From NCBI GenBank assembly GCA_024734495.1, contig JALMQS010000069.1, positions 348,961 through 412,960 of the forward strand: a DNA stretch of 64,000 nt. The letters run 5' to 3'. Origin of the DNA: Forficula auricularia (Eukaryota; Arthropoda; Insecta; Dermaptera; Forficulidae). The position numbers and the translations under genes are program-made. The notes under the pieces are model-generated. The model saw only the letters and a program-made list of their open reading frames with translations. It did no database searches and was not told the DNA's origin. Numbering within the stretch: the stretch's first letter is position 1; every line of letters begins with the position of its first letter. Positions 19-55,080 of this stretch are shown in pieces.

Positions 19-260
19 CGTCGCTGATCTTACAAAACCTCGTAAGTCCTAAATTCATTGTTGCCAGAAAACAAGAAAAACCATTTTAAACAACAATACA
101 AACAATATTTATTATTTGTTCGTAGCGCGAAATTAAATTGGAATAGAATAATAAAGTTTCAATAGACAGATGCGCTGTGAAAAGTTGGTCGGTATAAACG
201 TATAGGTAATACATATTTGACCAAAAATCGGACTTACGAGGTTTTCTAAGATCAGCGACG
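19..260. repeat. MITE family A, copy 1
   Basis: A 242-bp element whose ends are inverted repeats: CGTCGCTGATCTTACAAAAC at the left and its near-complement at the right. A second copy with the interior in opposite orientation lies at 52012-52265. It has no coding capacity. It sits in the intron of the heparanase-like gene, with its right end only about 14 bases from the splice donor of the 280-627 exon. The target duplication is unclear. Confidence 0.85.
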
Positions 261-279
261 GTATTTGAGTTTGACTTAC

Positions 280-627
280 CAATCCAGAGGGGCTTGTTGG
301 AGATGGCCTTGCCAAATGTCTTGAAGAGCTCTTCCTTGTCAGACGTGAGTGTATCAATGTCCATGACCATTTCTCCGGTGGCGTCCACGCCGCACACATT
401 GGAAGCGCGAACAAACCGCGGATGCCAAGTGATTGCGTCCAACACGTGACCAGCCTCTTTGAAGAGATCCCGAAGAAAGTTCACCTCTTGGGTATTCTTG
501 AAATCGAGAATATCTGGACCAAAGATTGGAGAATGCGAGTATCTTGGGAAGGCGTCTAAAATGTGTCTCAATCGCACGAGTTCGCGACCTATTTCCGTGC
601 CGGAGGATGTCTGCACTGTCTGCAATT
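280..627 (-). CDS. Heparanase-like protein, coding exon 5 (GH79 barrel)
   Basis: This exon encodes residues 154-268 of the reconstructed protein. The acceptor is a T-rich tract ending CTAG (AG at 629-628); the donor is G|GTAAGT at 279-274. The translation matches the heparanase core: GPD near residue 190, the DLFKEAGHVLDAITWHPRF block (human VTWHHYY region) and PLWIG at the end, equivalent to human VWLGE. The exon stops one base into the Gly codon, so the catalytic nucleophile Glu should be the first full residue of the next exon, which lies beyond the window. The spacing from the presumed acid/base E153 to that position is 117 residues, against 118 in human heparanase. The family is endo-beta-glucuronidases cutting heparan sulfate, usually lysosomal or secreted. 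Family identity is strong; activity is not established. Confidence 0.88.
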
Positions 628-2289
628 CTAGAAAAAAAGGGACGAATTTTCATTATTTTCATTTTTCAAATAGAATTCTAAAAAGGATTGAAACTTAGCC
701 TAGGTACCGAAACTAATTGAAGACCCCTCGGAAAGAACAGAGCATGTACATTTTTTTTGAAAATGATCTTGGATAGTTGAAATTACTTTCAAATAACGCG
801 GTTACGAAAAAATTAACAAAAAATAATTTCATGCACCATTATTTACATTGACCATACATACCCTACGCCATAATAAAGTTTTTGTGAGAATATAATTTAA
901 ATCGCAGTATCTTTACACAAATAAACTTCAACGGATAGTTGCTAGACTTTATCTATAGTCGTTTTAAAATCCATGCTTCGCTATGGATAATGTAGTAAAA
1001 AATTATAGTGAATATAGAATCTCAAAATTTAGTATGATGACTACATCTCAATTATTCAATCCTTTATATCTCAATAGTTAGTTTTATCAAATTATTTTCT
1101 ATTTAATAAAATATTAAGCATTTTATTCTGAATAAAATGACACTTTAATTTTGAAAATTGGTTGACAATTAATCGAGTTATGATGTTTTTTTGTTGTCAT
1201 TATTTTAGGTTAGTCATGGTTAATTGGATGAGATGAAATCGGCCATCATCGAATTTTAAATATTTGAATTTGAACATTGCTGCCATCTTACATCGATTTG
1301 TCCAACTAGCTTGTTGACAGATTAATTATAAAAATTCAAACAATTCTTGATTGAATCCAGCACCATCTTTTTTTCATTTACTTAAGAATAACTAACCATA
1401 ATTATTACCATAATAACTCGGTTAATAATTAACCGATTTGCAAAAATAAGGTGTCATTTTGTTTATAATTAAATTATTAAAATTTTATTAACTTTAAAAA
1501 CTTTAAAAAACTCCTGAAATAGAAAAAAACATTCCATATTTGACTTTTTGTTGATTAAAATTTCGATCATTTTTAAAATTAACATGTTTTCTAAATTCCG
1601 CTCTTTATTTAAAATTTTAAAAATGTGTCCCATGCTAGCTAGTTGATTGGCTAGCAAGCATGATACATTTGTAATTTTTAGTAAATATTTATATTCCCTC
1701 CCCTAGCTTCTAGCTTCACTCCAATTTCATGAAATATAACCTCCACCAACTTCGTATCCGCCACAATCTCATGAAAATTATCCCCCCCCCCCCCACCTCC
1801 TTACAAATAGAAGATGAATAACAGTAGTGGAGCACAGCCTATGATATTTGTAATAAAAACACTGTACGTACACTGTTCACTTGATTATAAGCAAATGCGC
1901 TTTTTTAACTGTCATTACAACTTTTGTCTTACTATAGTTGTAAAGTATATTTTATTCAGTTCTAAAGTAAGTTTATATTATCTTTTGTTGAAGTTATAAA
2001 ACTTAACCGTTTTTATTTTTAGCATGTAATGGTAATTTTGCAACAATTTTCGAACCCCCCACCCCCCAGAAATTTCAATGACACATTCTGCGTCTTAATC
2101 CCCCTTTATAGTTTCTTTATCAACCCTTTTTAAAGCAACTATTATTTCAAAAATTTCAAATTTCTATTGATAAATGAAGAATTTCTCCTGAAACGTCTGG
2201 AATTTTAATAAATGATTCTAGATTGTTCTATAAAAAATTTGTATTTATTTGTATTCAGAAAGAAAGATCATAATAATAAAATAGAATTA
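628..2289. other. Intron sequence, AT-rich, mostly featureless
   Basis: Part of the 3.0-kb intron between exons 5 and 4 of the heparanase-like gene. A relic at about 905-1000 resembles the direct repeats at 23.78-24.16 kb and the segment near 24.54 kb. Poly-C tracts occur near 1784-1797 and 2056. I see no coding exon. Confidence 0.6.
905..995 (+). repeat. Relic of the 24-kb dispersed repeat
   Basis: Contains AATAAACTTCAACGGATAG followed by TTGCTAGACTTTAT, and then CCATGCTTCGCTATGGATAA. Both blocks recur, further apart, at 23.78-24.56 kb, so this looks like an internally deleted copy. Confidence 0.5.
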
Positions 2290-2405
2290 AATTGAAAGTT
2301 TCTTTTTGCCGAGAGTAGCAGAATTTTTATATATTAAAGGAGACAATAAAAGAGTGTGTCTTCTGGTGAAAAAATAATTTTTTAAATTTATTTATAACGA
2401 TATAG

Positions 2406-3554
2406 ATTAAGGTAGTTGTTTCGCGACAATACTAGCTAAAAGTTAATGCTAAAGTATATAGTACAGACAATAAGGATTCATAATTCATAACCATATATTT
2501 GGGAAGTACGGTCAAAGAGAATTGGGACCATTCTGTTGAGATCCGTTGCCGAATAGAAAAAGCTCGAAGCACTTTCATCAGAATGTCGGGCCTGTTCAAG
2601 TGCCATTTCCTTAATTTGCCAACTAGAGTATGACTCCTCCGATGCTACGTGTTCCCTGTGCTTCTGTATGGAGCTGAGACATGGATGGTTACAGAAACAG
2701 CTAGTAAAAGATTGAACGCATTTGAAATGTGGCTATATCGAAGAATTTTGAGAATCCCTTGGACAGCCCATGTTACAAATAAAAATGTGTTACAACGCCT
2801 AAATAAAGAAATGGAAATCATGACTACAATCAAGGCAAGAAAACTGGAATATTTGAGACACAAATGAGAAATAAAGAACGATATGGGCTCCTTCAGCTTG
2901 TACTACAGGTGAAGGGAATGGGAAAGAGAAGACCGGGCAGAAGACGCATCTCTTGGCTTAAAAACCTAAGAACTTGGTTTGCTACTTCCACTACGGGTCT
3001 ATTTAGAGCCTCACTAAATAAGATTATAATTGCCAGAATGATCGCCAACGTCCGGTAACGGACAGGCACTAGAAGAAGAAGAATTCATAAGACCAAAACT
3101 TTTTGCTGTTTATGTACCACTAATAGCCAATCCCGTGCTCGTTTGGCAAATCTGGGAACACTGTCCGAGCTTGTATATATTTTATCATAGAAATATCAGA
3201 TAAAGTACATAATAAAGGGAGATTTATAAAACAAAAAGTTCTTAATAAGCGATTGAATGCTGTTGCGACAATGGCTGAAAACGTCAAAAAACGTCAAAAA
3301 AGTACTGAAGTTAACCCAATTTTTAGGTTAAATAAATGTGTTGTTGCCAGCTTAATTATTATTAAATATATATTTAAACTTTCCGATATTCCGTATAGTG
3401 CAATGTATAAGAGTCTGAAAAACTCTATCTTTGGAATTTAATATCTCCGGAACTATATTGTTCATGTATTTCGTTTTGCATAATTATTTATTATCTGTCT
3501 AAATTTCAAAAAAAAATGTTAAGAAAACCCATATGGTGAAACAACTACCTTAAT
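2406..3554. mobile_element. TIR-bounded insertion carrying a LINE fragment
   Basis: Both ends read ATTAAGGTAGTTGTTTC (2406-2422 directly, 3554-3538 as the complement). The interior holds a decayed LINE reverse-transcriptase C-terminus. A DNA-type element enclosing a non-LTR fragment implies that the LINE inserted into or was captured by it. No target duplication was recognised. Confidence 0.6.
2500..3058 (+). pseudogene. Non-LTR retrotransposon reverse transcriptase, C-terminal fragment
   Basis: The translation shows the tail typical of many arthropod LINE polyproteins: LLYGAETW, then FEMWLYRRILRIPWT, a KARKLEYL block, and finally GKRRPGRRRISWLKNLR with IANVR at the very end. The reading frame is broken by an in-frame TGA near 2635 (before LLRCYVFPVLLYG) and by a frameshift at about 2863-2867, where the frame ending YLRHK stops and continues as MRNKERYGLLQLV one frame over. 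There are no polymerase catalytic residues, because only the region downstream of the palm domain remains. It is enclosed in the 2406-3554 TIR element inside a heparanase intron, so it is a dead passenger. The exact clade cannot be assigned from this fragment. Confidence 0.85.
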
Positions 3555-3670
3555 CGTTTTAAATAAATTAAAAAATGTATTTTTCCAGCAGAAGATATAC
3601 TCTTTTATTGTCTTCTTTAAAACAATAGACGATTATTAATATATTATTAAGAGAGAAAGAATGAGAGTAC

Positions 3671-4038: not shown

Positions 4039-4261
4039 CTGTAAGTAAAACACAACAGGGCCATTTTAATACAAGAACTTTGAAACTAGATAATAAGAAT
4101 AAGCCAGCATATTATTAACAGGAGTAACAGAGTGAATGTACTAACTTAGTTTTCAATAAATCATTTTCATTAGATGTTCTTTTACGAAAACATAAACATA
4201 TTTTGAAGAAGACAATAAAAGAGTGTGTCTTATTCTCGAATTATAAATTTTATTTATAACG

Positions 4262-4299
4262 AGACTATAGTTTCGAGGGCTTTGCCCTCTTCATCAGTA
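4262..4299 (-). ncRNA. Hammerhead-like ribozyme motif, family D left arm
   Basis: Read on the minus strand: CTGATGA, one extra A, stem II GAGGGC/GCCCTC with loop AAA, GAAA, then ACTATAGT (palindromic stem III), and GTC before the predicted cleavage point. Stem I is at most two base pairs. All core bases are present. Confidence 0.6.
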
Positions 4300-4661
4300 T
4301 TTCGGAACACAAAAGAATTTTTAAAGGAGGTTCAGGTCATAGCGACGCAAACCATTTAATCTCCGAGAAACATTGTTTTCAAAACGAATCAAATATTAAA
4401 TGAATTAGATCAGAACACGATCCCCTAAAAATTAGTATCTTCGAATCGTTAGAAATTTTAAAATCATACAATAACTCACCCGAAAAATTTTTAATTCAGA
4501 AAACAGTAGGTATCTTAAAAGTAGCCGCGCAAATAAAACCCCAATACCACCACCTACAGACAAAAAATGAAAAAAGTATAAACGGAAAATCATAATTTGT
4601 CCAATCCAGGTGTATAGCTCACTTTCCATTCATACATTAATTCATGTGAATCAATTGTAAT

Positions 4662-4702
4662 AGACTGATGAAGAGGGCAAAGCCCTCGAAACAATAGTCT
4701 CG
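4662..4702 (+). ncRNA. Hammerhead-like ribozyme motif, family D right arm
   Basis: Mirror of the 4262-4299 motif. CTGATGA at 4665-4671, a six-bp GAGGGC/GCCCTC stem II, GAAAC at 4688-4692, loop AATA, GTC at 4697-4699. Stem III is AC/GT with a four-base loop. Confidence 0.6.
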
Positions 4703-4986
4703 TTATAAATAAAATTTGTAATTCCAGCAGAAGACACACTCTTTTATTGTCTCCTTCAAAATATAAAAATTCTGATACCCTCGGCAAAAAACTTTCAATT
4801 TAATAAACATATTTGTTATATTAAACAATTAATTATTCCAGCGCCTCCCAATCGATCACAGACCCCAAAGATCGAAAATAATTTTCTCTTCACCCGGGGC
4901 GCGACCACAACGAGGACGTGTAAAGACAATAATAACAAATTCAAATTTAGGGAACGAAGAAAAGATTGTTTTTATTACAGACAAAA

Positions 4987-5081
4987 GGATCAGCCGGGGC
5001 TCGATCCCGGGATCTTTGAATATGTACTGCAATGCTTTGTCATAAGAGGTTTACCTCCTATATCCACTAAGCTACTGATCC
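4987..5081 (-). repeat. tRNA-derived segment, copy 1
   Basis: Minus-strand reading has a 7-bp acceptor-like pair GGATCAG/CTGATCC, an A-box TAGCTTAGTGG and a T-arm with GCTCGAGCC-like B-box. The 95-nt length and irregular anticodon region argue for a SINE head or pseudo-tRNA. Confidence 0.7.
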
Positions 5082-5490
5082 CCGAACCCAAACTAATACC
5101 TTTTGTCTATATGAATTATGGAATTTCTTTTTTAATCCTCTCCTCGTTCATTTTTCGCAGCGTAGGCCTTGATTCATTAATTAAACAATTAATTATTCCA
5201 GCGCCTCCCAATCGATCGCAGACCCCAAAGATCGAAAATAATTTTCTCTTCACCCGGGGCGCGACCACAACGAGGCCGTGTAAAGACAATTAATAACAAA
5301 TTCAAATTGTGGAGTGTGGTGAAGAGAAAATTATTTTCGATCTTTGGGGTCTGCGATCGATTGGGAGGCGCTGGAATAATTAATTGTTTAATTAATGAAT
5401 CAAGGCCTACGCTGCGAAAAATGAACGAGGAGAGGATTCAAAAAGAAATTCCATAATTCATATAGACAAAAGGTATTAATTTGGGTTCGG

Positions 5491-5585
5491 GGATCAGTAG
5501 CTTAGTGGATATAGGAGGTAAACCTCTTATGACAAAGCATTGCAGTACATATGCAAAGATCCCGGGTTCGAGCCCCGGCTGATCC
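5491..5585 (+). repeat. tRNA-derived segment, copy 2
   Basis: Nearly identical to 4987-5081 in inverse orientation. Acceptor GGATCAG/CTGATCC, A-box TAGCTTAGTGG, B-box GGTTCGAGCCC. No standard anticodon stem-loop can be drawn with confidence. Confidence 0.7.
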
Positions 5586-5640
5586 TTTTGTCTGTAATAA
5601 AAATAATTTTTTCTTCGTTCCCTAAATTTGATATTTATTA

Positions 5641-6482
5641 TATTTCACATCCTATAATATGTAAAAAAATAAATGGAAAATATAAAATTCTGTAAATTTT
5701 TACCAAAAGAAAGAAATAACTAAACTGATGAGGCTATTTGATGAGTTTATTATAATCCTGCCCCTCCCCCCCCCCCTCCAGGTTTTAGGTTTTTTTTCAT
5801 TGTTAGTTTCCTAAGGCCTTAAAACCTTTAACTATTCCAAATCAGACGAAGGGTACACATATTTAACCCCTGGCCCATAATTTTTGGTTCGATTTTAAAA
5901 CTCTAATCAGCTCTTAATCTCAATATAATATTATATGTAAATATAAAATTTCGTATTGAGCTTACACGTGGGAACACGCACTCAAGAAGAACAGACATTT
6001 TGAGAAAATAATTTCGCACAATTTAAAAGTTGCCGATCAAATGATCTAATTTATTAAAATTATTCACCAATAATAATACGTTTATAATGAAAAAAACAAA
6101 AAAACAGTTGATGTCGCCATCTCATGAGTAATATAATAAATGTGCACTCCCCCCCCCGGGCTTCTTTAGGATGTTGATTTTTGCATTAATAATTCTTTAA
6201 GGTTTTAAAGGCTAACTGTACAAAATTTTCAAAAAGTTCACTGCTTAATTCTAGACCACAAACCATGACTCATTTTTTTTTGCTTTAATTAAACAAATCA
6301 TGATAATAAAATATTTATACACAAATATAGTATTTACAGAGTATGTAGTTTATATAGATTTTTTATTATATATTTATAATTTTATAATCAATGATTATAT
6401 AGAGGGATATATGTCAATCTTTAAGTATTTAATAAACTTTAATCTTTCAGATATAAAAGAGAAGCAAAAAAACAATTCTTTT
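5641..6482. other. AT-rich intron spacer
   Basis: Contains C-rich tracts near 5761-5779 and 6149-6158 only. I see no gene, inverted repeat or recognisable element. Confidence 0.5.
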
Positions 6483-7707: not shown

Positions 7708-8460
7708 CTAGAGCAAACATTAGTAGAGAGAGAGTGTAATAGACTTAGATATATAAAGGACTATTAAATTTATTTTAATCAAAATAAAAAATAATTTTTT
7801 TTGTAATTTAAGCAAATTCAATTTTTTTTTATCACAATATTCAAATACATATATGGATATTATTAGGTCAAGTAAACATGCAGGTGCATAAAATTCCAGC
7901 CTCTGCAAATAATATACATTTTCCAACATTGGAAACCTATCTCGAAAAATGAAACTATACAGGGGATTCAAAATACTAGTTAAAATTTTAATTCTTAAAC
8001 TAAAAGGAATACCGTAATTTTTGGAACCCCTTAAGTCTTAAAATAAAATTCATAATTTACAATTTTTGAAACCTTGGTAAAGTTCATTTTTTATCTTTTT
8101 ACAACATTTATTATTTAGTGGGAAATTTTTAAAATTTTGAATGTCCTATTTAAATAAAAATTCATCGTACGAAACCCAGAACATTCCACCTAATTTTTTT
8201 TATTTTAAAAAGTAATATTCGAATTTTCTTGATTTACAGCAAAATTGTTTTCTAGCTGTCTTCCAGTTTTCTCTTTATGTTTAATTATTATTCTATTTAA
8301 TTGAAAAGATTTTGTTTTGCCATGAGTAACAGAGTTACATAAATAGAAATAAATGATTTTGTTAAGGGAGAATGGTGTGAGTTCTTGGCGAAACATTTTA
8401 AATAAAGTAAAGAAAATTTTGAAAAATTTTAGAAGCTTTTTAAAATGAATGAGGATTATA
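7708..8460. other. Intron spacer
   Basis: Start of the 3.6-kb first intron of the heparanase-like gene. AT-rich; no gene or clear repeat recognised. Confidence 0.5.
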
Positions 8461-8660
8461 TATATTATTTGTTAGAGACTATATTAGTTTCGAATTTTGA
8501 ACTTCATCAAGAGTCTTTTTATAATTAGAAATTTAATTTCTCATGGGTTCAAATACCCAATTAGATGTTTTCGTTTTGTTTTAATAGTGAGCTGATGTCC
8601 TCTATTACAACAAAAAGAAAACATTTATTCGGATATTTGAAACCCATGAGAAATAACAGA
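8461..8660. repeat. Foldback fragment with decayed hammerhead motif
   Basis: The block TTTCTCATGGGTTCAAATA (about 8537) pairs with its complement near 8635-8655. On the minus strand, 8475-8515 reads CTTGATGA...CGAAAC...TAGTC, a degenerate member of the hammerhead-bearing family seen at 10.1-10.4 kb. Confidence 0.6.
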
Positions 8661-8664
8661 TAAA

Positions 8665-8840
8665 ATATTGAAGGAGACAATAAAAGAGTGTACTTATGCG
8701 GAATTATAAATTTTATTTATTTATAACGAATCGTTATAAATAAAAAAAATTTATAATTCCAGCAGAAGACACACTCTTTTATTGTCTCCTTCAATATATA
8801 AAAATTCTGCTACTCTCTGAAAAACTTTCAATTTAAGATA
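8665..8840. repeat. Short family D palindrome
   Basis: GGAGACAATAAAAGAGTG and its complement lie head to head around a TTATAACGAATCGTTATAA centre. The hammerhead core found in longer copies has been lost, consistent with central deletion. Confidence 0.75.
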
Positions 8841-8934
8841 AAATATTTATAATTAAAAAAAGACTAATAATGACGATTAAAACCTTCGAAACTATAGAAT
8901 CTAACAAATAATAAAAATATATAAATATATTAAC

Positions 8935-9765: not shown

Positions 9766-10099
9766 GTTCGTCGACTAAAAAGAAGAAAAAACATATGAAA
9801 TATTTATTTAACCAATTATATTAATTATTCCATTTGGATAATATTAATCTTATTATTGTATAAATATTGTTAAGTGAGGAATTATATTTTCCTAAATTGT
9901 GCCTTAAATATGTGAAATAACAAATCTTTTGACAATTGTGTTAATAATTGGTTAAGATAAATAAATTGAAAAGTTTTTTTTGCCGAGAGTAGCAGAGTTG
10001 TTGATTCACAAAGATAAACAAAGAGGTTGTCATCTGCTTGATGCAAATAAACATACACACATATATATCGAGATGATATATCTGTATATATATATTATT

Positions 10100-10135
10100 T
10101 ATTTTAGTTTCGAAGACTTGGTCTCATCATCAGTC
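10100..10135 (-). ncRNA. Hammerhead-like motif, partial
   Basis: Minus strand: CTGATGA (10133-10127), AGAC/GTCT stem II, GAAAC. The stem III and cleavage triplet region reads CTAAA, so the 3' part is eroded. Confidence 0.4.
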
Positions 10136-10334
10136 TTTCTTCAATTATAAATGTTTTTCATGGAGTCAATATCATATGGATATTGAAAACTTGGTGTTTC
10201 TTCATCACTGGTGGTTGATCTGGAACTAACAAGCTTTTGTTAGATTCCAGGTCAATCACCAGTGATGAAGAAACACCAAAGTTTTCAATATCCATATGAT
10301 ATTGACTCCATGAAAAACATTTATAATTGAAGAA

Positions 10335-10376
10335 AGACTGATGATGAAGAGCAAGTATTCGAAACTATAGTCTCAA
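10335..10376 (+). ncRNA. Hammerhead-like motif
   Basis: CTGATGA at 10338-10344, weak stem II, CGAAAC to 10365, ACTATAGT palindromic stem III, GTC at 10370-10372. Partner of the minus-strand motif at 10100-10135. Confidence 0.5.
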
Positions 10377-10482
10377 ACAAATAAATAATATGATACAATT
10401 TTGGCTGTATATGTATATAATTAAGTAATGGAGAGGATTCAGCCAATGGGTAGCCTCTGCTGAATAAAAAACTCCCAATTAT

Positions 10483-10526
10483 GGAAAACGTTTCGGCTTT
10501 AATTAAATAATGCCATCATCAGTTCC
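10483..10526 (-). ncRNA. Hammerhead-like ribozyme, full core
   Basis: Minus strand: stem I GGAA (10526-10523) pairs with TTCC (10486-10483). Core CTGATGA, extra T, stem II GGC/GCC, GAAA, palindromic stem III ACGT, cleavage expected after the T at 10487. Every core base is present and stem I is four perfect pairs. Confidence 0.68.
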
Positions 10527-10858
10527 TAAGAGTATTAGCGACACAATTAATTTTATAAATAAATTGTCCGCAGGCAGAGTTGTTGTGGATTTTATCATAA
10601 TATCAAAATTATATGAATTACAAAATGGTACATAAATCTTGGTGTGCTCACTTGATATGCGCAACGTTTCAAGTACAAATATGATATATATATATATAAA
10701 TATTTGTACTTGGGACGTTGCGCATATCAAGTGAGAGCACACCAAGATTTATGTACCATTTTGTAATTCATATAATTTTGTATATTATGATAAAATCCCA
10801 ACAACTCTGCCTGTGGACAATTTATTTATAAAATTAATTGTGTCGCTAATACTCTTAG

Positions 10859-10902
10859 GAACTGATGATGGCATTATTTAATTAAAGCCGAAACGTTTTC
10901 CA
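10859..10902 (+). ncRNA. Hammerhead-like ribozyme, full core
   Basis: Stem I GGAA (10859-10862) with TTCC (10899-10902); CTGATGA 10863-10869; one extra T; stem II GGC/GCC enclosing an AT-rich loop; GAAA 10891-10894; stem III ACGT; predicted cleavage after T10898. Mirror partner of 10483-10526. Confidence 0.7.
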
Positions 10903-11296
10903 TAATTGGGAGTTTTTTATTCAGCAGAGGCTACCCATTGGCTGAATCCTCTCCATTACTTAATTATAAATAAATAATATATATACAGATATATCATCTC
11001 GATATATATGTGTGTATGTTTATTTGCATCAAGCAGAGGACAACCTCTTTGTTTCTCTTTGTGAAGATAAATAAAATTTAAATAAAAAAAAAGAAATTGC
11101 ATCAAGCGGAAGACAACCTTATCGATTTCTCTTTATGATTAATTATTATTATTTTATATTATCCATTGAAATTCGTAAACGGGCAAAATTTTCGATAATT
11201 GACTCGATATAAGTGGTTCAAAATTTAATTAATTGCAAAAGAGGAGGAATCACGTTAATTATCGAATAATGTTTAAAAAGCAAGATTGTTACTTAC

Positions 11297-11460: not shown

Positions 11461-11875
11461 CACTCCTTTGCTGACCTCAACAATTTATGCCTTCATATTA
11501 TTTAACAAAATCCAATTAAAACAACAACAAATAACATGGCGTTGGTTGCCGAAATTGAGGGCAAATCGGAGTTGGCATTTTTCTGAAATTATTACGCATC
11601 TCTCTTTCTTGCAACATTTAATTAAACTAAAAATTAGATTAATAAATAAATTACTCATTCAAAGATTTATTTATATATTTATATAAGTATATATACGATT
11701 TCATAAATGTTCATAGAAGGCATCGCCTATTTCTTAATAATTCAATAAATTGGTGGAAAAAGTGAAACCTTTTCAAGAACTCGGTACGTTGTTTGCAATT
11801 TTGGTGAATTAGTAATTTTAATTGAAAAATATTTAAATCAGAAATTCATTTTAATTATATATTTTCTTACCTAAC
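11461..11875. other. Presumed promoter side of the heparanase-like gene
   Basis: AT-rich, unique, no coding potential. The TATA-like CATAAATT (minus strand, 11489-11482) is the only promoter candidate I can point to. Confidence 0.35.
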
Positions 11876-12381
11876 GTTAAAATAGAGGGGTGAACCTCGA
11901 CCTAATATGCTGTACACCTACTTCCACTTGTACTTCCAAATATTTCCAAGTACTTTCAAATATTTTCAAGTACTTCCAAATATTCCCAAGCACTTCCAGA
12001 TATTCCCAAGTACTTTCAAATAATTCCAAGCACTTCCAGATATTCCCAAGTACTTTCAAATATTCCCATGTACTTCCAAATGTTTCCAAGCACTTCCAGA
12101 TATTCCCAAGTACTTTCAAATATTTCCAAGCACTTCCAAATATTTCCAAGCACTTCCAGATATTTCCAAGCACTTCCAGATATTCCCAAGTACTTCCAAA
12201 TATTCCCAAGAACTTCCAGATAATGCCAAGTACTTCCAAATATTCCCAAGTACTTCCAAATGTATCCAAGTGCTTCCAAATATTTCCAAGTATTTTCAAA
12301 TATTTCCAAGCACTTCCAAAATAATTCCAAAGAGGTGTATCTAAATCTACTTCCAATCGCGGATCACCCCTCGGTTAAAAT
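11876..12381. mobile_element. hAT-like MITE with internal 20-bp minisatellite, copy 1
   Basis: The element 11884-12373 is flanked by identical 8-bp target duplications GTTAAAAT (11876-11883, 12374-12381). Its ends are AGAGGGGTGAACC and GGATCACCCCTCG, an imperfect terminal inverted repeat. An 8-bp duplication and a RGRGGTG-type end are characteristic of hAT elements. The interior (about 11930-12330) is about 20 copies of a 20-bp unit of the form CCAAGTACTTCCAAATATTT. Long open frames on both strands here are artefacts of the repeat. Confidence 0.88.
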
Positions 12382-13047
12382 GATGTTCTTAAAATTATAG
12401 TAGCTAAGAAATTAATCACTAATTAGGTCTGGACTAGTATTTAGCATCCTTGTAATGCCTTAGCTCTAAAGTAAGAGAGACCATTTTATCCGCGCTCTTT
12501 TTAATAATTTTTCTCAATTGAATTCTAATGATTTATTAAATAATAAAAAAAGTCAAAACTTAATTACTCTGGAGACCTCTTACAAGTAATTAATAATAAA
12601 CTTATATATAAAATAAAACGTACATTTATGGCTTTATTATAAATACATATCGCCTTAAAATATCGATAAAATCATTCAAAAAATGATGTTTTTTGCACTT
12701 TTGAACCAGACGTTCTAAAGCTAGAAAGCTCATAATCGAATCAGTTTTCCGCATTGGAAATACAAAAATGTTATAATAAGAACGAAATATCTTCGACTTT
12801 TCGTTTTTAAGTTATCGTGAGTATCTGAATCCAGACACACAGAAAAACACACATACATACAGACAGGAAAAATATAATGTTTAAAAATGATTTTTCTCCA
12901 GGTTTCAGACCTTTTTAAACACAATGAGCAAATAAAAAATACAAGGCTCGCCCAGGAGGCAGACTAAAATGGATTATTTAATCCGCTCGGCGAATTCCGA
13001 ATGAGTTTTTCGGCTGTTGTATCTCAATATGTGTTTTGTAATTCATA
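12382..13047. other. Spacer with transposon debris
   Basis: AT-rich. A segment at 12660-12960 (ACATACATACAGACAGG and TTTTTCTCCAGGTTTCAGACC) looks like the tail of a dispersed element. No gene. Confidence 0.45.
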
Positions 13048-22650: not shown

Positions 22651-22785
22651 ATCTTATTTTTCGTATGCATAGATAGTTACATAATAGATAATAACAACTT
22701 ATTTAAATAGATATGGTACTATAATGTTTTAAAATTATAAATTGTGGTGTTTTTTGAGGCTCTTGAAAACCTTGGAAACAGAATT

Positions 22786-23147
22786 TGTCCGCCTCCGTGG
22801 TGTAATGGTCAGAGTAACTGACTGGCAACCCGGAGGTCTCGGGTTCGATTCCCGGCTATACCCAGACATTTTTTCTGTAAGTATAGGGTCTGGTAATAAA
22901 AATTAAGTGGGAGATAAATTTAACCGAATTTATCGCGCGGAGAAATTACCACTGCTCGAAGCCCCTAAAACCTTAGTAAATTGGATATTGAATTGTATCT
23001 AAGTTTCTGAGATTGGCTCGTGATCCCGGCTTCTTTTTCTTCTACTCTGTTCTTTTCACGATGGAGGGGCCAGCCCATACTGGCCTTTAGGGGATCCACC
23101 TTCTGGTGTATCTCCTTCTCACATCAATATCATTAAAAAAAAAAAAA
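22786..23147 (+). mobile_element. tRNA-derived SINE A
   Basis: The head (22791-22864) has tRNA features: TGGTGTAATGGTC as A-box and GGTTCGATTCC as B-box, with a paired CCGGG/CCCGG T-arm. The body runs to a 14-base A-run at 23134-23147. The intact foldback arm on the other side (25025-25040) shows the empty target site, so insertion postdates the foldback. Confidence 0.82.
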
Positions 23148-23223
23148 GATGTAATGTCTTCGTTAGGAAAAAGGAAATAAAATTTCTTTATATTCTAACA
23201 AATTTATTTTCATGAAAAACTTA

Positions 23224-23264
23224 TGAGACGTTTCGGCGGATATTCTCACACCATCATCAGTCTA
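23224..23264 (-). ncRNA. Hammerhead-like ribozyme motif
   Basis: Minus strand: AGA, CTGATGA, extra T, stem II GGTG/CGCC (one wobble), GAAA, ACGT palindromic stem III, cleavage triplet GTC. Two stem I pairs. Confidence 0.58.
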
Positions 23265-24913
23265 CAAGGAAAACATAATCTTAATTACAGTAAATTACTA
23301 ATTACATGTCATTCTCAAGATAAAAGAAGAAAAGAACTCACCCAAGCTTTTCATAATATAGTACATATGTCTGTGTAGAATGTCATTTTCTTTTTACAAT
23401 TAATAACATTTTAATCAAAAAGCTTGTAATAAAAATAACAAATTAGAATTAATTTTAATTAACCTAAATAAATCAAATAAAAAATCTTCATATTTGATAT
23501 TTACCTGGAGATATTTTGTTGTGTTAAATTGTTATTAATATAGTATGTCAATATCAGTGAATATATCATATATATAATGAAATGTTTTAAATCTTATAGA
23601 ATGCCTTTTTTATAAGTTGTTTTCTATAGTTATTCCACTTTAAACATTTTCATAATATAGTACATATATATATGTGTAGAATGTTATTAATTGTAAAAAG
23701 AAAACAACATTCTACACATATATATATATATATTATGAAAATGTTTTAGGAATGGAATAACTATGAAAACAACTTATAATAAACTGCAACGGATCGTTGC
23801 TAAACTTTATCAAATTCATTTGAAATATTAATATGTTCTAGAGTAAAGTACTTTAAAATATAATTTTACTAAAAACTTTATTTAACCTTTTTTGTGGGTC
23901 CCAAGGTACTTAATTAGGATATTAAATTTCATCAAAATTGGTTAAGTCATTTTCAAGATATTTAGAAATAAACTGCAACGGATCGTTGCTAAACTTTATC
24001 CAAAATTCATTTGAAATATTAATATGTTCTTGAGTAAAGTACTTTAAAAATATAATTTTACTAAAAACTTTATTTAACCTTTTTTGTGGACCCCAAGGTA
24101 CTTAATTAGGATATTAAATTTCATCAAAATTGGTTAAGTCATTTTCAAGATATTTAGAAAAAACTAAAAAAGTACTGAAATAAAGTACTAATGTTTGTAG
24201 ACCGATATGTACCAAAAACTAATCAGCGCTTCATTTTTGTTAAACTAATGGTAGGTTTTCAATTTCATTTCAATCAGCACAAAGGTGTGGAAAAAATCGT
24301 GGACGAAAAAAACGATAACACACACACATACATACATACATCCATCCCCACACTTCCAAAAAAATGGCAATTTTTGGCCTCTCGACGAGATTCCAGGTAA
24401 TTTTTGGCAAAACCGTCACGTGCTAAAATTCAATCTCATTGAATACTTCAATTTGTGACCTTAATTGAGTCTATGGGTTCCGTAGTCTTTACCTGAGGAC
24501 CCTTTGAAGTCGCGCTTGCCGCGAGGCGATTCCAATACTTTCTCCCATGCTTCGCATTGGATAAAAGTAAAAAAGATATTCTATAAGATTTAAAACATTT
24601 CATTATATATATGATATATTCAATGATATTGACATACTATATTAATAACAATTTAACACACAAAATACCTCCAGGTAAATAACAAATATGAAGATTTTTA
24701 TTTGATTTATTTATGTTAATTAAAATTAATTCTAATTTGTTATTTTTATTACAAGCTTTTTGATTAAAATGTTATTAATTGTAAAAAGAAAATGACATTC
24801 TACACAGACATATTTACTATATTATGAAAAGCTTGGGTGACTTCTTTTCTTCTTTTATCTTGAGAATGACATGTAATTAGTAATTTACTGTAATTAAGAT
24901 TATGTTTTCCTTG

Positions 24914-24955
24914 TAGACTGATGATGGTGTGAGAATATCCGCCAAAACGTCTCAT
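24914..24955 (+). ncRNA. Hammerhead-like motif with a core mutation
   Basis: Same as the partner at 23224-23264, except that the catalytic G of GAAA is A (position 24944), which should abolish cleavage. Confidence 0.5.
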
Positions 24956-25117
24956 AAGTTTTTCATGAAAATAAATTTGTTAGAATATAAAGAAATTTTA
25001 TTTACTTTTTCCTAACGAAGACATTACATCTGTTTCCAAGGTTTTCAAGAGCCTCAAAAAACACCACAATTTATAACTTATTTAAATTTGGATTACTTTT
25101 AGTTATACATAAAATAT

Positions 25118-26920: not shown

Positions 26921-27117
26921 GTAGGCAATTCCTCGACTTCTCTTTTTTCACTGTCTCCTTACATTATACACGATCTAATACGCTTATAACGAGAACCCGG
27001 ATTTAACGAGAAAATTGAAAATATAAGGTTTATACAATGTTAATTAATATTATTAAAGTTGTTATAGGGAAATAAGGACTATATCTTTTATGCAGATAAT
27101 TTACTATATATTTTATT

Positions 27118-27155
27118 GCCGATGTTTCGTCAACTTTGTTGACTTCTTCAGTTCT
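27118..27155 (-). ncRNA. Hammerhead-like motif
   Basis: Minus strand: CTGAAGA, extra A, perfect six-bp stem II GTCAAC/GTTGAC, GAAA, then CATC. Core complete; stem I not evident. Confidence 0.5.
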
Positions 27156-27283
27156 CATATAGTTAACTTCCCTGCATATTTGTCATTTTTATAATTATTC
27201 TTTCTTAGTAAACATTTTTAAAGTCAATTCATCAACATCAATTGATTATAAAAATGACAAATATGCAAGGAAGTTAACTATTT

Positions 27284-27322
27284 GAGCCTGAAGAAGTCAA
27301 CAAAGTTGACGAAACGTTGACA
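27284..27322 (+). ncRNA. Hammerhead-like motif
   Basis: CTGAAGA at 27288-27294, extra A, six-bp stem II GTCAAC/GTTGAC (27296-27310), GAAAC 27311-27315, ACGT stem III. Stem I weak. Confidence 0.52.
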
Positions 27323-27889
27323 ATAAAATATAAATTATCTGCATAAAAGATATAGTCCTTATTTTCATATAATAACTTAAATTAATTTAATCGATGGACA
27401 TAAATAATCAAAATAATGTTAATTAAGTTAACCCGTTTTTTACAACACTCGACTATAAAGAGTAAACATTGCGGTCCCTTTGCGCTCGTTTATAAGCGGA
27501 TTTGACTGTATTAAAATGATAAAGAGGTGCATTCAAGCGGCCTTATACAGTAGGCGACTTTCCTGGCCTGAATAATTTTGGATTCCCTCGAAATTCTGCC
27601 TTTACAAAAAGATCCCATAATCAAATGATATTTCAAATGGGATTTACGTAGTATAAAGTCTCAGGAGTTATCGGTCACAAAATTGAACACCATGAATGTG
27701 AGGCCACAAAAAATCTAACAAACTCACATCATTTGTAGAGCTTTTGATTAATTTTTAAACTAGGTATCATCATTACAATTAGACACATGTTTTGCATTCC
27801 AAATTTCTACTTGTTGCTAATCTAGAAAAATACTTTCTATTGATATTTATATCTAATAATAAATTGACACTTTCTTATGTGGCCATCCA

Positions 27890-32205: not shown

Positions 32206-32614
32206 AAATTCTTTTCATAAAGTATTATATTTTTTAGTACTTGAAAAGAGTATTTCTTCATTGGATCAATTTTTATTTTTGACCTTCACCGTCAGTCTTT
32301 TTAATTAGAAATATTTTTTCCTTATCTCTCATGGGATCAATTATCCGATTGGATATAGAAAATTCATTTAGATTGTTATAGATAGCCATATAAACGAATC
32401 TACATAATATATATTTGGTATATAATATATGTATATTATGTTTGTCTGCATCAAACGGAGGACAACCTCATTGATTTCTCTTTATGATTCAACAATTCTG
32501 CTATTCTTGACAAAACCAAATCTTTTCAATGGGTTCGCCTGCCGTATAGACGAGCTCTCTCTTTTCCTTCATAATAGGTTGCATAACCTGCAGGCGGCCA
32601 GTTAGAGAAGACAA
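32206..32614. repeat. Fragments of the hammerhead/TATA repeat family
   Basis: 32280-32350 shows GTCAGTCTTTTTAATTAG and TCTCATGGGATCAATTA. 32440-32510 carries GCATCAAACGGAGGACAACC and CTCTTTATGATTCAACAATT. Both are remnants of the family at 9.96-11.08 kb. Confidence 0.55.
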
Positions 32615-33590: not shown

Positions 33591-34159
33591 GTTTAAATGC
33601 AGCACCACTTTGCGCTCTTGGATTGTCTCTGGTCGAGATGTATTCTTTCTGGAACTCGTCCGTCAGGAATGGATAAAAACTGATCTATTGTGATATGTTA
33701 TCTGTGATTTCCCAGTGAAATGTATTGTTCAATCAAAAAAATTTTATAAACAAAAAATGTAAATAGGTCTGATGAGCCAAACAATGGCGAAACTAGTAAC
33801 AATAATAAATAATTCAACATGAACATTTATTAAATTTCATTTATCCATTTCAAAATTTTCTATTATTAATACGAAGGAGCTAAACATAAAAAGATAATTT
33901 ATATTAATTTCTCACTCCTAAACACTAAAATACTCTATAAATTTATTTTATATTTATGTTTATTTTTATTATTAATTACTTATAAGTGCGTCTGTAGGGT
34001 CAATATGTTTTCATTTTTTTTGTTATTTAATCAATGTTTGGGTGATCGATTCTTTCATTAGAATCTGATCGGTAAAATGACTAAAAAGGCTCTTCCTTTA
34101 TCGCAAAGGATGCCAAATACAAGTACATGCTAGTAGAGATTAATTTCTAATTTCTTTTA
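33591..34159. other. Spacer
   Basis: A short GC-richer open stretch at 33580-33690 (SVICSECGLNAAPLCALG...) has no splice sites I trust. Otherwise AT-rich. Confidence 0.35.
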
Positions 34160-36591: not shown

Positions 36592-37199
36592 AATAGTCTT
36601 GAGCCAAACTTTAATTGATAAATATCGATTCATAGTCACAAATTATAATAAATTATTCATTTATATAATATTTTTGTTTACAATTAGGAGACCATGGGGA
36701 ACTTTTGTGGGTGTATTCAAAATGATATAAGACTAATTTCCCGAAGGTTATCTAATTGTAACCAAAAGTATTATAAAATAATAAATAAGGGAACAACAAT
36801 CCTGGAACCTGTATTGAAGAAGATTTTCTACTATGAATTATACATTATATTAATGGATTATTAAATTAAAATTCGATCGATACGTTTCAATATAATTATA
36901 TCATTATATAATATGAAACACACCTAGAATATTAATTTACTAATCTATCAAAGACTGATTTTCTCGACACCTTCACCCACTATAATATGTTGATTCCTTT
37001 TTTTTGTTGCTTTATCAATCTCACCTAAAATTTCTTGTAAAAGGAAAAAAAATCTGGTGTGTGAACTCGACTTTCACTTATAACCTCATCATACTAATTT
37101 CCCCCTTTAAAATTAATCTCTTCTCACTTTTATAACCGACATTTAAAAATACAAAACAGAATATTTCATTATTCGAGTCCATGATTATTAATTAAAAGG
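36592..37199. other. Spacer
   Basis: AT-rich, no feature. Confidence 0.4.
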
Positions 37200-37254
37200 G
37201 ATCGAAGGGTGTTGGACTTGACTTTAAATTAAATACAAAGTTTTTATTTAAATA

Positions 37255-37296
37255 GGCCAAACGTTTCGTTGCTGGTTCATAACTTCTTCAGTGGCT
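37255..37296 (-). ncRNA. Hammerhead-like ribozyme, full core
   Basis: Minus strand: stem I GCCA (37295-37292) with TGGC (37259-37256), four perfect pairs; CTGAAGA; extra A; stem II GTT(A)/(C)AAC; GAAA; ACGT stem III; cleavage expected after the base at 37260. Confidence 0.66.
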
Positions 37297-37576
37297 GAAA
37301 TAGCGAAACAAAGCCGTTAGACATCTTTTTATTAATCAATTATTTCATTATTTACAAAAGTACAATTGTAAGTTTTTTTCACCTCATTTATTAAACTTAT
37401 CTGTCTGGGGGTTTTGACTAAGAGAAAACTTCCATTTTCAAACAGTATCTTTACAAATCACTCAATTATATCAAATAATATAAAACATAAAACATTGTTT
37501 TAAATGCTGTACTTTTGTAAAAATGAAATAATTGATTAATAAAAAGATATCTAAAAGGCTTTGTTTCGCTATTTTA

Positions 37577-37616
37577 GCAACTGAAGAAGTTGTGAACTAG
37601 CAACGAAACGTTTGGC
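37577..37616 (+). ncRNA. Hammerhead-like ribozyme, near-complete
   Basis: CTGAAGA 37581-37587, extra A, stem II GTTG/CAAC, GAAAC 37605-37609, ACGT. Stem I GCAA versus TGGC has one mismatch (A37579 with G37614) relative to its mirror copy. Confidence 0.58.
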
Positions 37617-37670
37617 CTATTTAAATAAAAACTTTATATTTAATTTAAAGTCAAGTCCAACTCCTACGAT

Positions 37671-38721
37671 TCCTTTAGATGGGAAAATTTTGAAATTCAT
37701 CATTTATGAGCCGCCCGTAAACCAATTTTTCCCGCAGAAAACCGTATTAATTAAAAAGAGCACATATTTTTACATAAATACAGCGAGTTTAATCAAAACA
37801 GCTAGAGCAGTTTTAATCTTAAAAGAGTGTATAGTCAGAGAAGTAAAGTGCCACTTTCGGTATGTTGATTTTATCCAAAACCCTGTTATCACACTACGGC
37901 TGATTTCTAATATAAATAAAAATTTTACTAAACACGATTCTGGGCTATGCTGACCACATATATGCCATCTTCGAAACTCAGTGGACCTTAAAACGTGTAT
38001 TTCCGATGAAAACTGGAATTCGAAATTTTTGTCGATCGCAATACCATATACTATATACTCCATATATCGGTAAGTGAAAGTAAAAGAATCAATTTTTTAC
38101 GGAGATAAAGTTTCGATTAAATTCATAATAACTAAAATATTAATAATAGTAATAAAAATAAATTTTCGCTTTTTTTTTTTATTTCTCGAATATAATATAG
38201 ACCCGTTCTTTCTGTTTTTTTTGACGAGGAGGGTTATATTGATGGCCAGGATGGATAGTAAGACACCTGTTCGTTTATTTTCTGGCCAGCTAATCAAGGG
38301 TAAGCATTAATTGGGTGGCTATTTATGAAAATGTGTTAAAAAGAATAATGAATCTTGAGGAAGCCTTTTTCTTTAGTCAAAAGGGAATATAAAAAAAAGT
38401 CTGAATTGAGCCAATTAACACCACCAACAAAGAGGGGGTTACCAAGAGGTTGGGTTAAACTGCAGAACAAGCGGAAGCTATAAAAATACACCAATCAATC
38501 GAGAGTGAGAGAGAGGGCTATTTATCATATACACATACACACACTCTCCATGAACAATCAATATAAATATAGAAGGAGTCATCCACACTGAAAAAACGAT
38601 ATATTTATAGTTAATAAATTATACTTGATATGAATGGTGAAGTTAATTATGGTGAAATCGATCTCTGTTCAATATGAATAAATGATATACTTATTTTAAG
38701 TATTCTCATATTAGCAATTCT
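37671..38721. other. Unassigned segment with a lone splice donor
   Basis: A 113-codon frame spans 37612-37953, and ATCG|GTAAGT at 38070 resembles a donor, but there is no recognisable protein and no convincing acceptor. 38400-38720 is unique AT-rich sequence; ACTGAAAAAACGATATATTT at 38588 resembles 34180. Confidence 0.3.
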
Positions 38722-40181: not shown

Positions 40182-40749
40182 AAATTGTTAATAATAATAA
40201 AAAATGAGCCAATATTATAAAAAGCCTTAAAAGAGCTCAAAAATAAAAAATTATGGTTTATATTTAAGATATCCTCAATTTATGAGGGAGGTTCTAAAAT
40301 TTGTAGGTGATTGCATATTTCTGGTGCAACACTCTATTTCGTATCGATAAATATGATTCAAGTTAAAAATTTAGAAAAAAATTTCTTGTTAATTACCCAT
40401 TTGATGCCAATAGGAATATGGATCTATATAGTTGGGTAAACAGGGATATGGAGCCCTTCTTGCCCTCTCCCGCCTACGGGAATTGATCCTGTCAACAGTC
40501 GCCTCGTCGGACCACTGTGTCTCTGGTTCATTCAAATTTAGAATTCTCTCAAAATCTTTTAGAAAAGAAAAAAAAACAAAAAAAAAAATTAAAATTTTAG
40601 AATAAAGATATTTCAAAATCATAAATAAAGTAAAAAAAAAAAATAAATAAAAAAAAAAAATTATAAATCAAATAAATAGATAAGTTCAATAAAGTAGTAG
40701 TTCCGGAGAAATCGTGTGATATCTTAAAATGTTCCTAAATATACGCGTT
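40182..40749. other. Spacer
   Basis: A short GC-richer patch at 40440-40530 (AGCCCTTCTTGCCCTCTCCC) with no splice context I trust; long A-runs at 40565-40665. Confidence 0.35.
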
Positions 40750-41722
40750 AAGCTAAACAAGCATTTGATCTTTTATTTATGTGAAACCTACCTAGTATTT
40801 TATATTTAAAAAGCTAAACAAGGATCTGATCTTTTATTTATGTGAAACCTACCTAGCATTTTATATTTAAAAAGTTAAACAAGCATCTGATCTTTTATTT
40901 ATGTGAAACCTACTTAGTTTTTGATATTTAAAAAGCTAAACAAGCATTTGATCTTTTATTTATGTGAAACTTACCTAGCATTTTATATTTAAAAAGTTAA
41001 ACAAGCATCTGATCTTTTATTTATTGTGAAACCTACTTAGTTTTTTATATTTAAAAAGCTAAACAAGCATTTGATCTTTTATTTGTGTGAAACCTACCTA
41101 ATATTTTATATTTAAAAAGCTAAACAAGCATCTGATCTTTTATTTGTGTGAAACCTACCTAGTATTTTATATTTAAAAAGCTAAACAAGGATCTGATCTT
41201 TTATTTATGTGAAACCTACATAGTATTTTATATTTAAAAAAGCTAAACAAGCATCTGATCTTTTATTTATGTGAAACCTACCTAGCATTTTATATTTAAA
41301 AAGTTAAACAAGCATCTGATCTTTTATTTATGTGAAACCTACATAGCATTTTATATTTAAAAGTTAAACAAGCATCTGATCTTTTATTTATGTGAAACCT
41401 ACCTAGTTTTTATATTTAAAAAGCTAAACAAGCATCTGATCTTTTAATTATGTGAAACTCCACCTAGTATTTTATATTTAAAAAGCTAAAAACAAGCATT
41501 TGATCTTTTATTTGTGTGAAAAACCTACCTAATATTTTATATTTAAAAAGCTAAACAAGCATCTTGATCTTTTATTTGTGTGAAACCTACCTAGTATTTT
41601 ATATATTTAAGAAAGCTAAACAAGGATCTGATCTTTTATTTATGTGAAACCTACCTAGTATTTTATATTTAAAGAAAGCTGAACATGTTTATGTGAAACC
41701 TACCTAGTATTTTATATTTAAA
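40750..41722 (+). repeat. Tandem array of a roughly 61-bp unit
   Basis: About 16 units of the form AAGCTAAACAAGCATCTGAT, CTTTTATTTATGTGAAACCT, ACCTAGTATTTTATATTTAA. Divergence is low in the middle and rises near the right end, where units carry 1-4 base insertions and the last is truncated. Confidence 0.93.
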
Positions 41723-41937
41723 AATTTTATTGAAAAAGCTCCAAAATAACATTTTCAAAAAAATTTATTTAATTTATTTAATGTTTCAACAAGAACCTAC
41801 ACCATTCTCCTTAACATATAAATATATAAAAGCTTGTGTTTTGAGCTCATTTCTATCTTTAGATAGTATTCCCTATAGAAACATATTATTAAATTTAAAC
41901 TATTTTCTTTTGGAGACAGACTGATTGAATTCATCAT

Positions 41938-44190: not shown

Positions 44191-44700
44191 AAAATTTAAA
44201 TAATTTATAATATTGAGAAAACTATTACAAGATATTAGTTTGTCTTGTGGTCAGCTCAATATTATAACAAAACGAAAACATACAATTGGTTATTTGAAGC
44301 CATGAGAAATAACCGAAATAATATTTATAACTGAAAAGAATGATGATGAAGATCAAACCTCCGAAACTATTTTTACTCAAAACAATAGCACGAATCGTAT
44401 CGAGATTTTTCCTTCACTGAATTAAGAAAGTATATATATAATTATAAATATGTAAATTATTTTTAAATTGAAAAGGTTTTTTAGTCACAAACTAATAAAA
44501 TTATTCTCTTTTAATAGTTTGTGACTAAAAAAAAACTTTCAATTTAAAAATTAAGTCACTTAAGTTCTGTAAGAATTTTATAACAATAAATATGTAAATA
44601 TATATTTGGATTAAGTAGAGGAGAACCATATTGTCTTCTCTTTGTGAATCAACAACTCTGCTAATCTCGGCAAAAACAAAATCTTTTCAATTAAACAAGA
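44191..44700. repeat. Decayed member of the 10-kb hammerhead family
   Basis: GCCATGAGAAATAACCG, then AATGATGATGAAGATCAAACC, CCGAAACTATTTTTACTC (44340-44385, broken core), a hairpin at 44463-44545, and GTCTTCTCTTTGTGAATCAA near 44632. Confidence 0.6.
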
Positions 44701-46995: not shown

Positions 46996-47029
46996 AATAT
47001 TATATAATACATTTAATTAAATTGAAAAT

Positions 47030-47180
47030 TTATTTTTGCCGAGAGTAGCAGAATTTTTATGAAATGAAGGAAACAATAAAAGAGTGTGTCTTCTGGTGGA
47101 ATTATAAATTTTTAATTTATTTATAATGAGACTATAGTTTTGATAAATAAAATGAATTTATCTTATAAGATAAATTCATT
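47030..47180 (+). repeat. Family D end
   Basis: GCCGAGAGTAGCAGAATTTT, AACAATAAAAGAGTGTGTCT and GAGACTATAGTTTTGATAAA, then a hairpin in place of the hammerhead core. Confidence 0.7.
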
Positions 47181-47794
47181 TATTAATATTTTAGATCTGG
47201 GTTGATTTTTGAAATAATTTCCATCTTTTTTCAAAAAAGACACCTAAAAAAGATACTTAAATCTTGCTTTAACTGTAAAAACTTTATTAAATAGTAAATT
47301 ATTTTTATTTATTTTTTAAAAGTAACCATAGATTATTGAAATTATTGCTTATTGAAAGTGTAGTTGGCACTTGTTATTGACTTATTCAGTCACCCAATTT
47401 GAACTGCTTGAACTTCAGAAATATTCATTTTTGTAAGTATATTTTATCTTTTCTATCAATGATGCTTAGTTCAAAATGATTCTTATTGATATTTCAAATG
47501 GAATTTTATCTTTTTATTAAAACTTTATTTAAATTTAAACTGATATTGAGAAAGTATGATAATTTGTAATTGTATCTTTTAATATAATTTTAATTATTTT
47601 TTTTATAAAATTGGAAAATTATCAATGAAATTTATTGAATATGTTAGTTTAAGAGTTAATAGAACAAATTATATGGTTATTTGTAAAAATTTTAAAAATA
47701 TTTGCAATTTAATAAAGTTTTTATTGGTGGCTCGATTTTTTTCCACCGTAGTGTATATTGTGTGTATATTTATATTTGGAATATATATGTGAAT
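47181..47794. other. Spacer
   Basis: AT-rich, no feature. Confidence 0.4.
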
Positions 47795-47850
47795 GTATAT
47801 ATTTGCATCAAGCAGAGGACACAAGCTAATTGATTTCTCTTTTTATGAAA
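47795..47850 (-). repeat. Short GCATCAAGCAGAGGAC repeat end
   Basis: TTTGCATCAAGCAGAGGACAC and TTGATTTCTCTTTTTATGAA as at 11.03 kb. Confidence 0.6.
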
Positions 47851-54869: not shown

Positions 54870-55080
54870 ATTTAGTTTGCCGAGAGTGTGTAACAGAGGT
54901 GATGATTTATAAAGAATCAATGAGGCTATTCTCTGCTTGAATATAAATATGTATATATATATAGTATATAACTATAATATATATTATATAAAATTTGTTA
55001 GAAACTATGACGAAGACTTATAATGAAAGTCAAACCTTCGAAACCATAGTCTCTAACAAATAAATTTTATATACTATATC
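54870..55080 (+). repeat. Family D-prime element with decayed hammerhead core
   Basis: GCCGAGAGTGTGTAACAGAG end, then 55014-55056 GACTTATAATGAAAGTC...CTTCGAAACCATAGTCTC. CTGATGA has become CTTATAATGA. Confidence 0.6.

Follow-up and report, generated by a model that had tools for sequence, protein, structure and literature searches.

Within a 64,000-nucleotide stretch of the Forficula auricularia genome (the window, that is, the whole of the DNA that was analysed), two hammerhead ribozyme motifs lie back to back on opposite strands of a single palindrome. This raises the question of what kind of element would carry its ribozymes as mirror images, and whether these could be expected to cleave. 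A first-pass annotation, made from the letters alone, had described the pair as outward-facing and apparently intact, and direct reading of the sequence bore this out, since GGAA-CTGATGA-T-GGC…GCC-GAAA-CGTT-TTCC is present letter for letter in both arms, complete-looking in each (Table 1). The cleavage position it gave for the minus strand (after 10487) is retained, while that for the plus strand had to be moved from 10898 to 10897. The foldback it placed at 10422-10968 also exists, with longer bounds, 10392-10967, that are flanked by two copies of AAATAAATAATAT. We refer to this element as E4.

A chance resemblance within AT-rich palindromes had to be considered, given that only about 15 core bases define the motif. 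The pattern CTGATGAN{5,35}GAAA occurs 8 times in the 64-kb window versus 1.25 expected. The full descriptor (CTGANGA, 0 or 1 base, stem II with ≥3 pairs, GAAAC, N0-5, GTH, and stem I with ≥1 pair), which was drawn up post hoc, returned 10 hammerheads versus a mean of 0.003 and a maximum of 1 in 300 dinucleotide shuffles. When CTGANGA, GAAAC and GTH were demanded at the right distances and no stems were required, the same 10 were recovered, and every one of them proved to have three or more pairs in stem II and one or more in stem I. The ten are not independent cases, since they come from only seven loci, with both arms counted in three, and E2 and E3 share distant sequence similarity (73-76% across 50-65 bases). 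All have the type I arrangement CUGANGA ... GAAA ... UH with an open stem I. Stem III starts A-C and ends G-U in all ten; it is self-complementary in nine, the exception being 4665+, and the palindromic stem III reported for the E4 pair is among the nine. The extra base after CTGATGA, previously said to recur in every family, was found at six of the seven loci (nine of ten hammerheads) and is missing at 33769+. A viroid hammerhead, too, has an extra base, to judge by the title of one reference in PMC6155905.

Covariation of stems I and II, as expected of a type I hammerhead, was seen in an alignment of 8 hand-trimmed sequences from 6 loci, from which E7 was omitted (it has no extra base) and in which the E4 arms were entered once. 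Paired cells amounted to 87.5% versus 65.4% in shuffled alignments (stem II 100% of cells, stem I 67%), pairs changing on both sides numbered 5 versus 2.6 (a value reached in 5/500 shuffles), and the covariation score was 0.536 versus 0.108 shuffled and at most 0.143 slid, all of these figures being favoured by trimming to the expected structure and by the kinship of the rows. A covariance-model match had been set beforehand as a test, and here the outcome was negative: no Rfam hammerhead matched the window at E up to 1, or positions 10420-10970 at E up to 10, in searches run without a minimal PLE hammerhead as control. We place little weight on this result because stem III is almost absent from these motifs and because their own covariation is direct evidence, although the missing match does count in favour of chance. 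Rfam microRNA-precursor models matched over 10610-10775, in all cases under their gathering scores, and these matches were ascribed to the palindrome. With ten hammerheads where 0.003 were expected, stem II in every core-only match, and covarying stems, chance resemblance is scarcely credible. The hammerhead observation is real and statistically solid, and cleavage itself is predicted from the sequence.

The structure of E4 bears on how the pair became mirrored. E4 interrupts the right arm of E3, itself a foldback, and the left (mirror) arm of E3 is continuous, has a single copy of AAATAAATAATAT and represents the empty site. Each E4 arm is about 277 nt long, with about 208 nt from the centre to the cleavage site and 70 nt (95 with the tail) from the cut to the element end; the latter distance is about 65-103 nt in E2. 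Over an alignment of 280 columns all differences between the arms fall in the inner ~130, and the outer 150, which include the hammerhead and a stem-loop predicted to fold beyond the ribozyme (within 10417-10967), are identical. The intactness of both ribozymes probably reflects youth; in E3, E5 and E6 the ribozyme of one arm is broken. The earlier statement that the element has no coding region holds, because its ATG ORFs of at least 30 aa are only 31 and 41 aa inside it and 48 aa overlapping the right end. The TATATA-rich centre is possibly a two-way promoter.

Table 1. Coordinates of the mirrored hammerhead pair, its element and the related loci of the window. Cleavage positions are predicted.
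Feature	Position	Strand	Details
E4, head-to-head pLTR-like arm pair	10392..10967		inside E3
E4 target duplication, left copy	10379..10391		13 bp, AAATAAATAATAT
E4 target duplication, right copy	10968..10980		13 bp, AAATAAATAATAT
E4 one-sided extension (tail)	10392..10416	-	25 nt, left arm only
E4 palindromic centre	10681..10706		TATATA-rich, arms meeting head to head
E4 left-arm hammerhead	10483..10526	-	identical to right; cleavage after 10487
E4 right-arm hammerhead	10858..10901	+	minimal type I; cleavage after 10897
E4 plus copy, stem I 5' side	10858-10861	+	GGAA
E4 plus copy, CTGATGA	10862-10868	+	extra T next, then GGC...GCC
E4 plus copy, GAAA	10890-10893	+	
E4 plus copy, CGTT	10894-10897	+	
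E4 plus copy, stem I 3' side	10898-10901	+	TTCC
E3, host of E4	9966..11063		inverted arms; 39-nt extension left only
E3 duplication	9954-9965 and 11064-11075		AAGATAAATAAA
E3 right-arm hammerhead	10336..10374	+	stem III ACTATAGT; cleavage after 10372
E3 left-arm hammerhead copy	10133	-	cleavage side lost
E2	4204..4802		34-nt extension right only; duplication ATAAACATATTT overlapping left arm end
E2 hammerheads	4297 and 4665	- and +	
x8, mini-element	8670..8835		two E2-family arms; 41-nt extension right only; duplication AGATAAAATATT
Tenth foldback around x8	about 8457-8930		decayed, E3-like; outside the nine duplication-tested
E1	2289..3628		E2-family arms; tail motif left only; no clear duplication
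E5	22709..25074		duplication AACTTATTTAAAT
E5 hammerheads	23260 and 24918	- and +	23260 intact; 24918 G12 to A
E6	27048..27414		duplication AATGTTAATTAA
E6 right hammerhead	27288	+	intact
E6 left hammerhead copy	27151	-	without cleavage-side GT
E7, single hammerhead	33767..33800	+	without extra base
E8	37195..37677		no duplication found
E8 hammerheads	37291 and 37581	- and +	complete in both arms
E10 foldback	54913-55073		right end uncertain

We next consider the other foldbacks of the window, since they bear on whether E4 is an isolated case. Target duplications of 12-13 bp flank six of the nine foldbacks tested (E2, x8, E3, E4, E5 and E6) and were not found in E1, E8 or E10, with none at all in E8 and E10 and only a chance-level 8-mer in E1. 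By comparison, 0.0055 (0.55%) of 2000 random-window pairs reach 12, mismatched flanks of the same elements do so in 0/70 cases (longest 10; two E3/E4 cross pairs omitted), and none of seven other inverted repeats of the window has a duplication of at least 12 (longest 10). One arm is 25-41 nt longer than the other in all seven of these nine foldbacks that could be resolved, a count in which E6 is scored as 36 versus 8 nt and E1 is judged from its tail motif. This motif, TGCCGAGAGTAGCAGA, was chosen from these same tails, and with up to 3 mismatches it occurs at 8 places versus 0.09 expected. When viral contigs were scanned with it, three single 16-base matches were obtained, and the one inspected resembled unrelated DNA. 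Wherever a hammerhead is recognisable in a foldback it is oriented outward, and this is true of several different arm sequences.

Foldback and MITE DNA transposons have long inverted arms and are non-coding. The long, nearly perfect inverted arms of E4 and its lack of a coding region are shared with these, and would also suit a class II element that is moved by a transposase and has captured its hammerhead elsewhere by chance. A class II element would be expected to have matching terminal ends, however, and E4 does not, its 25-nt extra tail being matched by the same asymmetry in all seven resolvable elements. Moreover, the outward-hammerhead plan is common to arms of several different sequences, the other inverted repeats of the window lack long duplications, and E4 and its kin have retrotransposition-like joints as well as unequal ends. 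A class II origin is therefore improbable, and we rejected it because the tail is one-sided. The first-pass suggestion of a possible non-autonomous foldback was apt as to a non-autonomous, non-coding element; the change made here is that the element is best taken as a product of reverse transcription and not as a class II foldback.

The lead towards Penelope elements proved the better one. The arrangement looked for, namely head-to-head pLTRs (~200 bp) with a palindromic joint, a tail of 30-40 bp on one of the inverted pLTRs and a target duplication at an AT-rich site, is what E4 displays, with a tail of 25 nt and a duplication of 13 bp. E4 is, very probably, a non-autonomous Penelope-type insertion consisting of two head-to-head pLTRs with hammerheads near their outer ends. 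It is filed as such by architecture, because a reverse transcriptase is absent from the window ORFs scanned: neither a PLE reverse transcriptase nor a GIY-YIG endonuclease gave a Pfam match in 9 of the 14 stop-to-stop ORFs of at least 110 aa. The mirrored ribozyme pair is, on this assignment, a by-product of the Penelope-type insertion architecture.

Several further features of the window were recorded. A 122-codon open frame (37585-37953, +) begins near the E8 hammerhead, runs outward and has no Pfam match; it may represent the beginning of a Penelope ORF or have arisen by chance. No mirror arm of E7 was found in the window by BLAST. More decayed E2/E3 pLTR ends and tails lie at 32401-32512, 44317-44672, 47020-47143, 47781-47842 and 54913-55073. 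The centre of E1 holds a TTAA-flanked insert (2411-3553) with two TTAA copies and, by eye, 12-bp inverted ends GGTAGTTGTTTC; it resembles a TTAA-duplicating DNA transposon. An exon-like ORF at 86-649 (-) resembles heparanase, solved chains of which match it at E of about 1e-7, and a protein search with part of it matched one unnamed protein. A long inverted repeat at 4928-5644 has arms with tRNA-like sequence, with an Rfam tRNA at 5491-5586 above the gathering score. Large tandem arrays occupy 11854-12389 (10/20-base period) and 40649-41727 (period ~61 bases).

Whether the ribozymes act is a separate matter. In fold predictions the RNA of the whole E4 element forms one hairpin of about -450 kcal/mol in which both ribozymes are buried, so that cleavage would need transcripts running outward from the centre. 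The hammerhead was never the lowest-energy fold, neither in the nine tested as monomers nor in the eight of these tested as dimers; by computation the ACGU stem III cannot close in a monomer and can close in a dimer. Dimers of Penelope hammerheads are reportedly the subject of a 2017 paper. Assistance to the ribozyme by a protein is plausible by analogy with the anole element, for which the portion of PMC11167929 consulted reports that insertion in vitro did not need the ribozyme, that the ribozyme itself depended on the protein, and that RNA ends at the cut site were not observed. These reported properties, together with the very short stem III, the hammerhead fold not being that of minimum energy and the broken arm in each of E3, E5 and E6, would also be in keeping with relics, that is, hammerheads which match in sequence and whose RNA goes uncleaved in the animal. 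Against this, the cores are complete, the stems covary and the arms of x8 begin exactly at the predicted cleavage site, and we regard relics as a serious possibility and yet a rather doubtful one.

We propose that a PLE protein encoded elsewhere would nick both strands of an AT-rich site, and that reverse transcription would be primed on both target strands, the cDNA from an outer start acquiring the tail and that from an inner start having none. The two cDNA ends would then be joined in the middle, head to head. Such joining would account for mirror-image arms, for a tail on one side only and also for unequal arms such as those of E2, which differ greatly in length, the shorter one beginning at about CTGATGA. 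Excerpts of PMC11167929 describe a PLE enzyme that cleaves and extends both strands of AT-rich DNA, a tail that is the stretch between two RT start sites, and copying that begins within an AC-rich stem-loop, 111-118 bp into the ORF, the ribozyme cut lying at +26. The start sites were not seen to differ between the strands there, which counts against a fixed outer/inner division. Transcripts that run outward from the TATA-rich centre could form the ribozyme, most probably by dimerising through stem III (ACGU) or else with assistance from the PLE protein, and cleavage would then follow position 10897 or 10487; none is expected in whole-element transcripts. Such cleavage would separate the pLTR from the presumed copying start and leave a short 5'-OH RNA as a possible template.

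An alternative within the Penelope type is self-priming, in which an antisense pLTR transcript folds back at the palindrome of its 5' end, so that copying yields a hairpin, as is proposed for the rotifer Penelope in the accessible text of PMC3846280. The palindromic centres of E3 and E4 agree with it. The joint of x8, on the other hand, has no palindrome beyond the arms themselves, plus one extra A, the E2 arms differ greatly in length, and simple self-priming would be expected to place a tail on both arms where only one has it. We consider self-priming unlikely, and prefer the joining of two cDNAs.

The joint of x8 carries a further hint. Each of its arms starts with the nucleotide that follows the predicted cut, and the joint reads ACGA(8729)-A(8730)-TCG(8731), as would be expected if two cDNAs had run to the end of a self-cleaved RNA. 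Hammerhead cleavage might accordingly set the 5' end of the insertion-template RNA, with two cDNAs reaching the 5'-OH end and then being joined; we offer this tentatively, and hold it as a lead only because x8 is a single clean case. Among the nine foldbacks there is one exact cut-site joint (x8) and one possible one (E1). The arms of E1 meet at the cleavage site or within about 10 nt of it, and E1 was not counted as a second exact case because its 10-nt filler TATAGATTAA could retain a TATAG remnant of the ribozyme. E10 was set aside, its left arm beginning about 6 nt before the cut site, and the arms of E3, E4, E5, E6 and E8 begin much farther upstream of the cut and give no cut-site joint. 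No paper on insertion joints at a ribozyme cut site was found among the matches listed in the open-licence literature. If the idea is true, the centres of mini-foldbacks (x8, perhaps E1) mark the ribozyme cut to the base, the ribozyme determines whether an insertion is long (from uncut RNA) or mini (from cut RNA), and self-cleavage within the animal is documented in its genome. More generally, small size, repetition and nesting make the joints of these elements legible as a record that bears on the role of the hammerhead in Penelope elements, just as the one-arm tail bears on the priming of PLE insertions. The copies here are clues to how such elements are copied, and make both the use of cleaved RNA and the one-sided tails testable.

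Comparison with known systems places E4 as follows. Animal non-LTR retrozymes, as described in part of PMC7229834, share with E4 a non-coding nature, a type I hammerhead and low GC, and dimer action is reported there for those of amphibians. They differ in being tandem repeats with circular RNAs of ~170-400 nt, whereas the E4 copies are mirror images. E4 has no stretch delimited by a pair of ribozymes of like orientation, its copies lying on opposite strands and facing outward instead of head to tail in the same sense, and we rejected the retrozyme reading because the copies are inverted, not tandem. Terminons, in the excerpt of PMC6431247, are PLE relatives with a 3'-terminal hammerhead and are in this respect similar; they are, however, telomeric and giant, with telomere-type repeats after the ribozyme.

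The closest likeness is to the Penelope-like elements. Cervera and de la Pena are said to have described, in 2014, Penelope-like elements with hammerheads in their pLTRs. E4 shares with PLEs a type I hammerhead of the minimal form, in which helix III is all but absent (according to the part of PMC6155905 seen, Penelope hammerheads are usually without it) and head-to-head inverted pLTRs. Also shared are the palindromic joint (E3 and E4), the one-arm tail, the target duplication, the AT-rich target, the TATA-rich centre and, in E4 and E2, a comparable spacing between the ribozyme cut and the end of the element. In the sections of PMC3846280 consulted, Penelope insertions have adjacent inverted pLTRs (181-218 bp) that meet head to head at palindromic joints, an optional 31-bp tail on one inverted pLTR, duplications of 8-10 bp in some copies, and a TATA that can be read in both directions. 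Compared with the rotifer Penelope, the arms (~277 nt) and the 13-bp duplication of E4 are longer, the duplications across the window being 12-13 bp. E4 differs from PLEs in consisting of two pLTRs only, with no ORF, and even this is not wholly new, since the same sections describe unrelated sequences captured between solo pLTRs. A hammerhead-bearing pair in inverted pLTRs is, as far as the portions seen of PMC3846280, PMC11167929 and PMC6155905 extend, a known kind.
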